From the IMG/VR virus record IMGVR_UViG_3300035189_000011, positions 1-26,070 of that record: a DNA stretch of 26,070 nt; one strand, given 5' to 3'. Source of the DNA: a virus. The notes beneath the pieces were generated by a model. That model saw nothing but the letters and a program-made list of their open reading frames with translations. It did not search any database and was not told where the DNA came from. This document shows positions 8,782-11,192 of the stretch, piece by piece. Numbering within the stretch: the first letter of the stretch is position 1; every line of letters begins with the position of its first letter. Made by a program: the position numbers and the translations under genes.

Positions 8782-9167
8782 GGGCTGCCACCAAAGCCGC
8801 GCTCCCGGTCCCGGCCGAGCATGAAGAGCAGAAGGCGCTGATCAAGTGGTTCGCCATGCAGTACCCAAAGATCGGTAACAGGCTGGTGGCGGTGCCCAAC
8901 GGCGGCGACCGCGATCCACGGGTAGGCAAGAAGCTCAAGGCCGAGGGTGTCCGTTCTGGCTTTCCCGATTTGATGCTGCTAATCCCGCGCGGCGCCTTCA
9001 TGGGCCTGATCATCGAAATGAAGCGGGTGAAGGGCAGCAAGCTTGAGCCAGAGCAGGCCGAATGGCTCGACTGGCTGAATACGCAAGGTTTCATGGCAGT
9101 GATTTGTAAAGGCGCCCAGGCGGCGCGCGACACTATTAAGTCTTACCTTGGGGAGGGTGCACTATGA
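8778..9167 (+). CDS. VRR-NUC domain nuclease
   Basis: A 129-aa protein made of one VRR-NUC (PD-D/EXK) domain. Motifs: AVPNGGDRDPRVGKKLKAEG near 38-57, GFPDLMLLIP with D64, and IIEMKR with E80 and K82. Stand-alone phage VRR-NUC proteins are nucleases, some acting on Holliday junctions. It follows the YbcO-like gene with a 4-nt overlap, forming a recombination/repair pair in place of the usual Rus/RusA resolvase. Confidence 0.9.
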   Translation: MRAATKAALPVPAEHEEQKALIKWFAMQYPKIGNRLVAVPNGGDRDPRVGKKLKAEGVRSGFPDLMLLIPRGAFMGLIIEMKRVKGSKLEPEQAEWLDWLNTQGFMAVICKGAQAARDTIKSYLGEGAL

Positions 9168-9841
9168 AACTCATCGGAGCACGTCAGGCTTGGGCTGACA
9201 GCCAGCACGAATCGAACATGTCGATCAGCGCGGTAGCGGCGGAGAGCGCCCAGACCGAAAAGCAGGTCAAGCGATCCCGGTCAGCGCGCCGGGAGGTGAT
9301 CTTTGCCGCCCAGGGTGAAGACAAAGAAGCGCGCATCCGCGTGGTGCGTAAGCGCATCAATATCGCCGAGACGCGCCGCACACCCATCGGGCGCTCGACA
9401 GCTCGCGCCGCGCACCTGATGACCATGGGCAAGATCCAGGCTGCAATCGAAACGCTTCCCTTCCAGGTCCAGCAGTTCGGTCACTACCTGTATCACCCCT
9501 GCATGACAGCCATTCACCTGCTCAACGCTGAAAAGCTGATCTGGGCTGACACGGATTTCTCTGCGCTCACAGACGCCAAGGCGGAGAAGGCGCATTGCCT
9601 GATCACCATCGCCCTTCAGTCCTATAAGTCCGAGGTGCACGGCGGTGCTGAGTACGGCCCGGCCCGTGTCGCCGACGGCATGAAGAAGATCTACGGCATC
9701 AACATCGACCCAGGTAACTGGGATCGGGATTGGTTGAGCATTTGGAACATCATCCGTGACGCCATTGAAGAAGTGGATATTCAGGCGCAACAGCCTGTCT
9801 GGCAGGTGATTCACGCGGAAAGAGAGGAAGATGCGGCATAA
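9164..9841 (+). CDS. Probable late antiterminator (Q-like)
   Basis: A 225-aa basic protein, last gene of the early operon. It begins MKLIGARQAWADSQHESN and has an Arg/Lys-rich N-terminal third (EKQVKRSRSARREV; EARIRVVRKRIN). I do not see the lambda Q zinc-finger cysteines and the family is not certain. The position is telling: a consensus-like promoter immediately followed by a terminator lies just downstream, as with lambda Q and pR'-tR', and the late region contains many intrinsic terminators that need antitermination. Function by context. Confidence 0.6.
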   Translation: MKLIGARQAWADSQHESNMSISAVAAESAQTEKQVKRSRSARREVIFAAQGEDKEARIRVVRKRINIAETRRTPIGRSTARAAHLMTMGKIQAAIETLPFQVQQFGHYLYHPCMTAIHLLNAEKLIWADTDFSALTDAKAEKAHCLITIALQSYKSEVHGGAEYGPARVADGMKKIYGINIDPGNWDRDWLSIWNIIRDAIEEVDIQAQQPVWQVIHAEREEDAA

Positions 9842-9844
9842 AAG

Positions 9845-9873
9845 TTGACATGAAGGGATTTTGTCAGTACTTT
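9845..9873 (+). promoter_or_regulatory. Late promoter (PR'-like)
   Basis: TTGACA (9845-9850), 17-bp spacer, TACTTT (9868-9873); start near 9880. The -35 is a perfect consensus. The terminator 35 nt after the start makes it a pR'-tR' style late promoter. Confidence 0.75.
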
Positions 9874-9914
9874 TGCCATAGTGCGCAACTTACCACTGAC
9901 GCACAGGTACAATG

Positions 9915-9943
9915 AAAAGCCCGGCCATCGTGTTGGGCTTTTT
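9915..9943 (+). terminator. tR'-like terminator
   Basis: Stem AAGCCC/GGGCTT (9917-9922 with 9935-9940) with a short extra pairing inside and U5. It would end the late transcript after about 65 nt unless antiterminated. Confidence 0.75.
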
Positions 9944-9972
9944 GCTATGTGGGTGAATGCGTAGGCTGATAC

Positions 9973-10112
9973 GAACGAGTGGCGGAACTGGTATACGCTG
10001 GGGAGAGGTCCGAAAGGATAGGACGAAATCCTCGATCCCCTTGTCCCTGAATTAACAGGGACTGCGCGCAAGGCGTGGCGAAAGCTCTGCCGGTTCAAGT
10101 CCGGCCTCTTGG
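9973..10112 (+). ncRNA. tRNA-like structured RNA with expanded anticodon and variable regions
   Basis: A leucine/serine-type tRNA frame is visible. TG at 9980-9981 leads into a D-arm with stem GCG/CGC (9982-9984/9996-9998) and a GG-containing loop. The T-arm is canonical: GCCGG TTCAAGT CCGGC (10089-10105). Where the anticodon arm belongs there is a five-bp stem GGGGA/TCCCC (10000-10004/10036-10040), but the loop is 31 nt and has its own stem (10005-10008/10030-10033) and a TCC-GAAA-GGA hairpin. The variable region is 48 nt with a seven-bp hairpin (10043-10049/10056-10062). The acceptor is degenerate (9977-9979 pairs with 10106-10108, few other pairs) and CCA is not encoded. It is probably not a working tRNA. 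It could be a regulatory or decoy tRNA-like domain. Confidence 0.6.
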
Positions 10113-10294
10113 AAAACTTGCAATGCCGGGATCAGCTCCGGCCACCCGCACCCTTTATGTTGGCGCAGCCCAAGCGGGATGATGCTCTGAATCGGATGAA
10201 GTAGAGCCCGGCGGCCCCGGACCGAAGCCAAAATGCAGGTAGCGCTGCACGCCGACACCCAATTTCAAGACCCGCCCACCGAGGCGGGTTTTTC
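10113..10294 (+). other. Gene-free structured stretch after the tRNA-like domain
   Basis: No credible gene. Hairpins include GCCGG/CCGGC (10125-10129/10138-10142) and a five-bp TGCAG/CTGCA stem near 10233-10250. The stretch ends in a strong terminator at 10268-10294. It may be the 3' part of one RNA that starts at the late promoter or contains the tRNA-like domain. Confidence 0.5.
10268..10294 (+). terminator. Terminator after the tRNA-like RNA
   Basis: Stem ACCCGCC/GGCGGGT (10270-10276 with 10283-10289), six-base loop, then U5. Confidence 0.8.
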
Positions 10295-10396
10295 GTTTTC
10301 AGCTCCTCCACGCCCATTGCTTCGGCTGGGAGTGCCGCAGGGGCTGATTCAATCCGCAAGCGCTACGCCAACCCTTGATCTTCCGGAGATCTCCCC

Positions 10397-10684
10397 ATGA
10401 TGCGATTCATCAAGTTCTGCGCGCTCGCGCTGAGTTTTTGTTTTGGTTGTGCGTTCCATGCTGCCGTTGAGCGGCCAGCGCATTACCTGGCTTTCGTGCT
10501 CGGCCGCGTCTGTGAGTTGTACGGCGTCAGCGTGACCCGCATGCACCTCACGCTCGCTTTGTGGCGAACAGGTAGTCAATCTACCGACGAAACCCTGAAA
10601 TCCAATCTGCGCGCCTCCAGCAATCACTTCGTGATGACCTCCGCCAAGCCAATGCCCGAAAGCTACGGCTTGTCTCCCTGCTGA
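10397..10684 (+). CDS. Small secreted or membrane-anchored protein, lysis region
   Basis: A 95-aa reading frame, start at 10397 (or 10400) after GGAG at 10383-10386. The N-terminus MMRFIKFCALALSFCFGC is a signal-peptide-like or lipoprotein-like hydrophobic stretch ending in cysteine. The remainder is unremarkable. It is isolated between terminators and lies just before the holin-like genes. A spanin or antiholin role is possible but not shown. Confidence 0.5.
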   Translation: MMRFIKFCALALSFCFGCAFHAAVERPAHYLAFVLGRVCELYGVSVTRMHLTLALWRTGSQSTDETLKSNLRASSNHFVMTSAKPMPESYGLSPC

Positions 10685-10868: not shown

Positions 10869-11192
10869 ATGGAATTCTTTCATCGCCTGCTCGACAAGAC
10901 TGACTTGTTCTTTGCGGGCCTCATTGGGGCCATTGTCGCAAGCTGGTGGCACAAGGACGATCTAACGGACTGGCGAGCATGGATGATCTTTCTCGTCACT
11001 GGGGTAGCCTGCTCGCTGTACCTGACTGGAATGGTCAGTGAGCGCCTCGGCATCATCGAGCCCAACAACGTCGCCGGCGTCGGCTTCCTCCTGGGCACAT
11101 TCGGCGGCTCTCTCATGGCTGCCATTAACCGAGCCATCAAAGCCGCTGACCTTTGGGCGCTAATCCGCTCCAAGTTCGGGGGAGGTACGTGA
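10869..11192 (+). CDS. Holin-like membrane protein
   Basis: A 107-aa protein with three hydrophobic segments: about 13-27 (LFFAGLIGAIVASWW), 40-60 (AWMIFLVTGVACSLYLTGMV) and 70-88 (VAGVGFLLGTFGGSLMAA). Size, charged N-terminus and three spans fit a class I phage holin. Start chosen at 10869 after AAGAGG; the longer reading begins in a terminator. It overlaps the next gene by 1 nt, another small membrane protein. Endolysin is not found nearby. Confidence 0.75.
   Translation: MEFFHRLLDKTDLFFAGLIGAIVASWWHKDDLTDWRAWMIFLVTGVACSLYLTGMVSERLGIIEPNNVAGVGFLLGTFGGSLMAAINRAIKAADLWALIRSKFGGGT

Follow-up and report, generated by a model that had tools for sequence, protein, structure and literature searches.

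The window analysed here is the whole stretch of the virus record IMGVR_UViG_3300035189_000011, 26,070 bases in length, and the RNA locus of interest lies on its + strand. Upstream is a Q-like late antitermination gene and downstream are two holin genes, as assigned by PHROG profiles. The features of the locus are given below; L followed by a number denotes another locus used in the comparisons, and "frame" denotes the outer RNA domain set out further on.

9164..9841, + strand: Q-like late antitermination gene, 225 aa (phrog_3373, E 3.5e-72, unknown function; phrog_304, 'anti-termination protein Q-like', E 1.3e-4)
9915..9943, + strand: terminator-like hairpin (tR'-like), directly 5′ of the RNA (sequence; equivalent hairpin in the same place in the relatives compared)
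9948..9955, + strand: frame closing stem, 5′ strand, pairing with 10143-10150 (8 bp including one G-U; the stem covaries in the family)
9960..9973, + strand: frame hairpin A, stem CGU/ACG, loop AGGCUGAU (family comparison)
9974..10124, + strand: variable middle arm, 151 nt, here a tRNA-Leu-like RNA (frame comparison)
9977..9979, + strand: acceptor remnant GAG, pairing with CUC at 10106-10108 (4/7 acceptor pairs overall)
9980..9998, + strand: tRNA-Leu-like D-arm TGGCGGAACTGGTATACGC (sequence; Leu-type and L388 comparison)
10000..10040, + strand: anticodon-position stem GGGGA/UCCCC with a 31-nt structured loop (fold; the L388 stem is GCCC/GGGC)
10043..10062, + strand: hairpin with an AAUUAA hexaloop (recurs in L376, L379, L380/L382, L381 and L383; covaried stem in L388 and L385)
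10077..10086, + strand: short hairpin GGC[GAAA]GCU, putatively variable-arm-like (fold; analogy with the variable arm of L376)
10089..10105, + strand: T-arm GCCGGTTCAAGTCCGGC, GCCGG[UUCAAGU]CCGGC (sequence; L388 comparison)
10125..10142, + strand: frame hairpin C, stem GCCGG/CCGGC, loop GAUCAGCU (GF-2/EPP-1 identity; family comparison)
10143..10150, + strand: frame closing stem, 3′ strand, pairing with 9948..9955
10267..10292, + strand: intrinsic terminator 3′ of the RNA (terminator scan)
10869..11189, + strand: holin (phrog_2359, E 4.4e-36)

The Q-like gene has no Pfam match. A sequence-only reading of this DNA had placed the RNA just behind pR'-tR'. The late promoter is only partly supported: 9840-9945 is conserved among relatives and the gene upstream is Q-like, whereas a sigma-70 promoter scan gave no site. 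The tR'-like hairpin at 9915-9943 was unflagged by the terminator scanner, which has a loop limit of 8. The same reading had the RNA followed by a terminator of its own, and the scan located this at 10267-10292. Between the RNA and that terminator (10152-10266) inverted repeats can be seen by eye. Further downstream, 10397-10684 is a small late-leader ORF for which PHROG and Pfam searches gave no match; by eye, an ORF at about 4563-4863 of L037 resembles it.

The middle arm of the RNA carries a D-arm and a T-arm of class II, Leu-type, with 93 nt between them; in E. coli tRNA-Leu the two are separated by 36 nt. Retention of both arms, a rebuilt anticodon position and poor acceptor pairing had all been proposed from the sequence, and each was recovered: the D-arm at 9980-9998 and the T-arm at 10089-10105, a 31-nt loop on the GGGGA/TCCCC stem (10000-10004/10036-10040), and 4/7 acceptor pairs. 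Thus the canonical D-arm and T-arm are present and the 7-bp acceptor is absent. An anticodon arm of 5 bp and 7 nt is likewise absent from the window RNA by ARAGORN, by folding and by a segment-removal test, and ARAGORN reports no tRNA and no tmRNA in the window. Rfam at gathering threshold gave no match in the window, and a permissive scan of 9800-10400 gave weak terminator-type matches only. Similarity searches against phages with 9840-10330 and against plasmids with 9960-10145 returned nothing. The single-fold energy of 9965-10125 (z -1.74) is not decisive.

Homologues of this arm are more informative. The string CTGAATTAACAG, 5′ of the T-arm, was found at 6 viral loci, two of which (L380 and L382) are identical over the stretch compared, and at each of the 6 a tRNA-like D-arm and T-arm surround the AAUUAA hairpin. 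A relaxed search added L388 and L385; four of its eight loci (L384, L386, L387 and L389) were judged by eye to be chance matches. L388 shares with the window the upstream GTGAATGCGNAGGCTGATNCGAA, the D-arm, the AAUUAA loop (its stem covaried), the T-arm and, further downstream, GCCGG..GATCAGC..GGCCACC; outside the RNA the two have no detectable similarity. It is the one close homologue of the whole composite. The T stem is GCCGG/CCGGC in the window, GCTGG/CCAGC in L388 and GAAGG/CCTTC in L383; the stem of the AAUUAA hairpin is CCCUG in the window and UUGGG in L388, and the anticodon-like stem GGGGA and GCCC, respectively. That the T stem and the AAUUAA stem are kept by compensation in L388 argues against a decaying tRNA, and the occurrence of the same composite there indicates that the window composite is more than chance. 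Drift had been set against conservation as a test by the earlier reading, and what the T stems of the homologues show is compensatory change rather than random drift. The reality of the tRNA-Leu-like piece, as a non-decoding, tRNA-derived RNA that keeps its elbow, is therefore supported.

The flanks of this piece (9948-9975 and 10125-10150), left uninterpreted in the sequence-only reading, form a second, outer RNA domain. A permissive phage search gave tRNA-Leu D-arms together with the identity that led to this frame: 10122-10145 matches 24 nt of the Edwardsiella phage GF-2, and a second Edwardsiella phage, EPP-1, shares 25 nt. The GF-2 copy of these flanks lies immediately 5′ of gene N and encloses a simple hairpin; its fold comprises a closing stem and hairpins A, B and C, with loops A and C complementary (z -2.83). 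In general, the closing stem of the frame has 7-9 bp; a linker of 2-3 nt leads from it to a hairpin of 3-4 bp with 8 nt in the loop, then comes the variable arm, and on the 3′ side stands a 5-bp hairpin whose loop is mostly 8-9 nt and which has no linker to the closing stem. In the window the closing stem of 8 bp with one G-U falls within this range, hairpin C (10125-10142) has a CAG core in its loop and likewise no linker, and AUCAGC of hairpin C (10131-10136) is complementary over 6 nt to GCUGAU of hairpin A (9965-9970). The 5′-half pattern GTGAATNCGNAGGCTGATNCG (hairpin A) is exact at 9953-9973, the window having helped to define it. From the lengths and the complementarity we infer that the frame has a tRNA-like wiring, in which loops A and C would pair as a D-loop and T-loop do. 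On this comparison the window RNA is a larger, predicted composite spanning 9948-10150, of which the tRNA-like piece is only the middle arm. The earlier view of a tRNA mimic or remnant that kept its elbow stands in so far as the piece is non-decoding and tRNA-derived with the elbow kept, but it missed that this part is the swapped arm of a widespread outer RNA. The roles it put forward, as a decoy for tRNases, a substrate of RNase P or a control of the late leader, are candidate functions.

The 5′ half of the frame alone was found at at least 120 viral loci. We assembled 125 frame elements, 117 from the listed 5′-half loci and the remainder from the window, L388, GF-2 and annotated phages; among the matches listed, the 3′ half was recovered in 122/125 and the CAG core of loop C in 114 of these 122. 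The 8 candidates without the loop-C CAG were dropped, as were arms of 170 nt or more for the arm and shuffle counts and near-duplicates by shared k-mers for the arm count. At the fourth pair of the closing stem, which the pattern leaves unfixed, the matches listed (n=114) have GC in 72, TA in 19, AT in 17, GT in 3, CG in 2 and TG in 1. Since pairs outside the fixed search pattern vary by compensation, the closing stem of the frame covaries. Across 86 distinct top halves among the matches listed, the closing stem and the hairpins are paired in 98.8% of cells, compared with 85.4% (sd 0.5) after shuffling, and both sides of a pair have changed in 139 cases where shuffles give 28.8 (maximum 40). 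In a MAFFT alignment of 32 members 95.7% are paired against 87.9%, with 53 both-side cells against 14.1 and 0/500 shuffles as high; in both counts the percentage paired is inflated, because the elements were chosen partly by pairing. The alignment excludes the window, L388 and L037, as well as L419 (coordinates not recovered) and L475. Changes in the loop A/loop C pairs are one-sided only and do not covary, loop A having been fixed by the scan pattern. Covariation thus supports the stems of the frame and not the kiss between loops A and C.

A covariance model built from the 32 aligned members (R1), with phage P01 in the model and the window, L388 and L037 outside it, scores 47.9 bits for L388, which it matches whole, 58.9 for L037, 69.4 for GF-2, 80.3 for HK620, 54.0 for PAJU2 and 45.7 for Aurca01; P1 gives 59.6, 69.0 and 21.3 bits, and mEp460, EPP-1 and HC6 are also matched. 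R1 does not span the 151-nt arm of the window, where it gives just two half matches (19.1 bits, E 0.02; 20.2 bits, E 0.01). On a further 64 loci, three of which (L426, L434 and L450) were part of R1, it gave 71 matches at E <=0.1, some long-armed members again as two halves. At gathering threshold, Rfam has no match over the frame in the frame loci scanned except its tRNA model in the L475 arm, and a permissive Rfam scan of six further frame loci gave weak or tRNA matches only. Neither a description of the frame nor six frame sequence strings were found in the literature searched, most subscription journals lying outside it.

The arms are diverse. Among the matches listed there are 92 distinct arms, in a range of 25-220 nt, and against mononucleotide shuffles they are only slightly more stable (mean z -0.84; 15/92 below -2). 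Four tRNA-derived arms were seen: those of the window and L388, both Leu-like, that of L475, which has an Rfam tRNA match of 34.2 bits and is without an anticodon arm, and that of L037, an acceptor/T-arm minihelix in which a 9-bp stem encloses the T-arm. As judged from sequence, the outer frame is widespread among phages and unannotated, and its arm is hypervariable and replaced wholesale between phages. We hold the composite structure and its family to be very probably real.

The HK620 frame lies between pR'/qut and the terminator tQ and precedes holin S, a position comparable to that of the window frame between the Q-like gene and the holins; those of GF-2, PAJU2 and mEp460 lie in the leader region downstream of cI. 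The frames of Taipeivirus P01 and HC6 are near tRNA genes, and P1 has two clear copies and one weak copy after tRNA-Asn and tRNA-Thr and before tciA (L513:2400-3360, equivalent to OP279344.1 at about 65534-66494). In the weak third copy both loops are changed and their complementarity is lost. Between the P1 frames are other T-arm-bearing stems, for example GGTAAGGGTA..AGGGTTCGAATCCCT..TACCCTTACC. An ARAGORN tRNA was found within 600 nt of 12/119 frame elements among the matches listed, on the same strand in 12/12. One arm variant was found in 838/5426 E. coli genomes. In other sets of chromosomes the 5′ pattern was found in 1/390, 2/394, 1/289 and 0/295 genomes, and the single match among the 289 is doubtful (R1 24.9 bits).

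Among 80 phages found by their Q-like protein the frame is clear in one, L037, within its late leader. R1 was run on 76 of these relatives and the remaining four (L006, L012, L030 and L070) were scanned with it separately; weak matches in L044, L034 and L047 were dropped as not frame-like (the sequences of L044 and L034 were inspected). At L006:3856-3931 and L070:1636-1711 a tRNA (Met and Ser, respectively, by ARAGORN) lies just behind the equivalent terminator-like hairpin. A hairpin motif resembling GACAGCTCGGAAAGACGAGC is common to L006, L037, L380 and L388, in non-coding stretches near these RNAs.

The Leu-like arm also has a wider context. A window-arm pattern with the acceptor left free and Leu-type D-arm and T-arm 76-106 nt apart matched at least 120 viral loci (L082-L201), 10 of the 120 listed being removed because an ARAGORN tRNA was present. 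The 93-nt gap of the window fits this long-gap set. Among the matches listed, a perfect 7-bp acceptor is found in 96/110, against 4/7 pairs in the window, the following base is A in 81 of these 96, and the T stem is perfect in 107/111 with the window included; of 66 distinct acceptor combinations, 54 are perfect compared with 2.6 when shuffled. These matches show that phages commonly carry putative tRNA-like RNAs in which no anticodon arm can be recognised. None of the 110 listed sits in the outer frame. In L082-L201 a middle domain of 73-103 nt replaces the anticodon arm, and a long helix often ends 2 nt before the T stem, giving pseudoknot potential. An H-type pseudoknot reaches a score of >=24 in 36/72 of the middle domains among the matches listed, once near-duplicates were dropped by shared k-mers, against 15.9 in mononucleotide shuffles, and is absent from the window.

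Could the window RNA be a phage tRNA with an intron, spliced to yield an ordinary tRNA-Leu? We deleted each contiguous stretch of suitable length in turn and scored the resulting anticodon arm, near-duplicates being dropped by shared k-mers. Phage tRNAs with inserts are indeed common, in that a good anticodon arm (score >=15) is restored in 31/72 of the class-I controls against 0.55 in shuffles (matches listed). However, the Leu-type set yields only 4/72 at score >=17 against 1.5 expected (matches listed), and the window, for which the test gives the anticodon GCA, reaches 6.2 where shuffles of the set average 8.75. The window is therefore not an intron-containing tRNA on this evidence: removing one segment restores no decoding anticodon arm, and we consider this model barely credible. 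In the class-I tRNA genes of phages in L249-L368 the anticodon stem is interrupted by 40-56 nt, in most cases at 28/29 or 29/30. ACAGCAA is found in many of these inserts and GUUACUU at the end of others; they may be micro-introns. Leu-type tRNA-like genes with gaps of 87-88 nt are also present on cyanobacterial genome contigs (L202, L208 and L230), and L230 can be read as tRNA-Leu(UAA) in which about 50 nt are inserted 3′ of the anticodon loop. The group I intron of cyanobacterial tRNA-Leu(UAA) is longer than this insert. A different account would have the arm as a decayed phage tRNA-Leu, inserted into the frame and without function of its own. The weak acceptor and the missing decoding arm suit this, and so do L006 and L070 with a tRNA in the equivalent site, most relatives having neither; yet in L388, dissimilar outside the RNA, the composite is complete and its stem changes are compensatory, and the AAUUAA hairpin recurs in unrelated phages. 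We thus think decay distinctly improbable.

Two further explanations concern the frame as a whole. It may be a cis-acting late-leader element: folding in the nascent transcript, it would control antitermination, RNase processing or mRNA stability in the stretch from pR' to the lysis genes, with the arm a tolerated spacer. The leader positions in GF-2, PAJU2, mEp460, HK620 and the window are as expected of such an element, and a hypervariable arm of such range suits a spacer, but the frames in the tRNA clusters of P1, Taipeivirus P01 and HC6 lie outside such leaders, and compensatory conservation of the inner tRNA-like part is unexpected for a spacer. We regard this explanation as unlikely, though it is, with the assembly model that follows, one of the two main rivals. 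We rate as quite unlikely that the frame is an RNA-only assembly of the GOLLD/ROOL type, its loops pairing between molecules and its arm an enclosed or displayed cargo. GOLLD and ROOL are described as phage RNAs often near tRNA islands that assemble via kissing loops, and the same-strand tRNA genes near 12 of the 119 listed frame loci are in keeping with this. Against it, the frame is built of few elements, its loops are just as well accounted for by a kiss within one molecule, and neither the window nor the frame loci scanned match GOLLD or ROOL in Rfam at gathering threshold.

The explanation that we tentatively prefer is a composite, non-decoding RNA whose arm would bind or decoy a tRNA-handling factor. 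What the comparisons have shown is a locus that encodes such a composite (9948-10150) in a putative cloverleaf-like junction, with loops A and C as a likely kissing pair, analogous to the D-loop/T-loop contact of tRNA; its arm carries the D-arm, the T-arm and, where a decoding anticodon arm would stand, a conserved AAUUAA hairpin. The RNA would be transcribed from the Q-dependent late leader, would probably be stable owing to its tRNA-like fold, and would act in trans. The frame may serve as a constant scaffold, leaving contact with a host factor to the fast-changing arm. The arm here being a tRNA elbow, the most likely partner would be a tRNA-handling protein (a defence nuclease directed at tRNA, an elbow-binding enzyme or RNase P), and the composite RNA would keep it occupied as a decoy. 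According to PMC11555353, defences that degrade tRNA are countered by phage tRNAs. The decoy mechanism itself is possible but doubtful, and because only four of the arms seen are tRNA-derived, a tRNA-targeted role cannot hold for the whole frame family. More speculative, and in our view unlikely in its full extent, is a phage-wide RNA class uncatalogued in Rfam: a tRNA-shaped scaffold, made of the closing stem and of D-like and T-like hairpins joined by a 6-bp kiss, would display a hypervariable arm that has evolved in an arms race against RNA-binding defences of the host, and in the window and L388 a second tRNA mimic would be nested in the first as a decoy. The frame RNA spans P1, HK620 and phages of Klebsiella, Pseudomonas and Edwardsiella, and is thus experimentally accessible in laboratory phages. 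A constant scaffold with a swapped arm would give a handle on the host factor being evaded, and, given the tRNA-derived arms, defences directed at tRNA would be the natural starting point.

Several known systems resemble parts of this RNA. tRNA-Leu and phage tRNAs share its class II D-arm and T-arm, whereas the window RNA has no 7-nt anticodon loop, a weak acceptor and a negative ARAGORN result. In tmRNA (PMC3985003, PMC3929946) a tRNA-like top half is similarly retained and the anticodon half replaced; the window has no tmRNA match by ARAGORN or by Rfam at threshold. The tRNAs of Lak phages with 'enigmatic introns' (PMC6784885) likewise combine a phage tRNA with an insert, but removal of the insert restores no anticodon arm in the window RNA. 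Proteo-phage-1 RNA (RF03044) is a phage sRNA in the same late leader as the L037 frame, at 4975-5053 of L037; it is a separate element upstream of that frame and was not found in the window by Rfam. GOLLD and ROOL (PMC12286853) are phage-borne like the frame, with complementary loops and a variable linker. GOLLD is often >800 nt, against about 60 conserved nt in the frame, which has no Rfam match. GOLLD is the closest precedent, because its linker sometimes holds phage tRNAs (PMC12286853).
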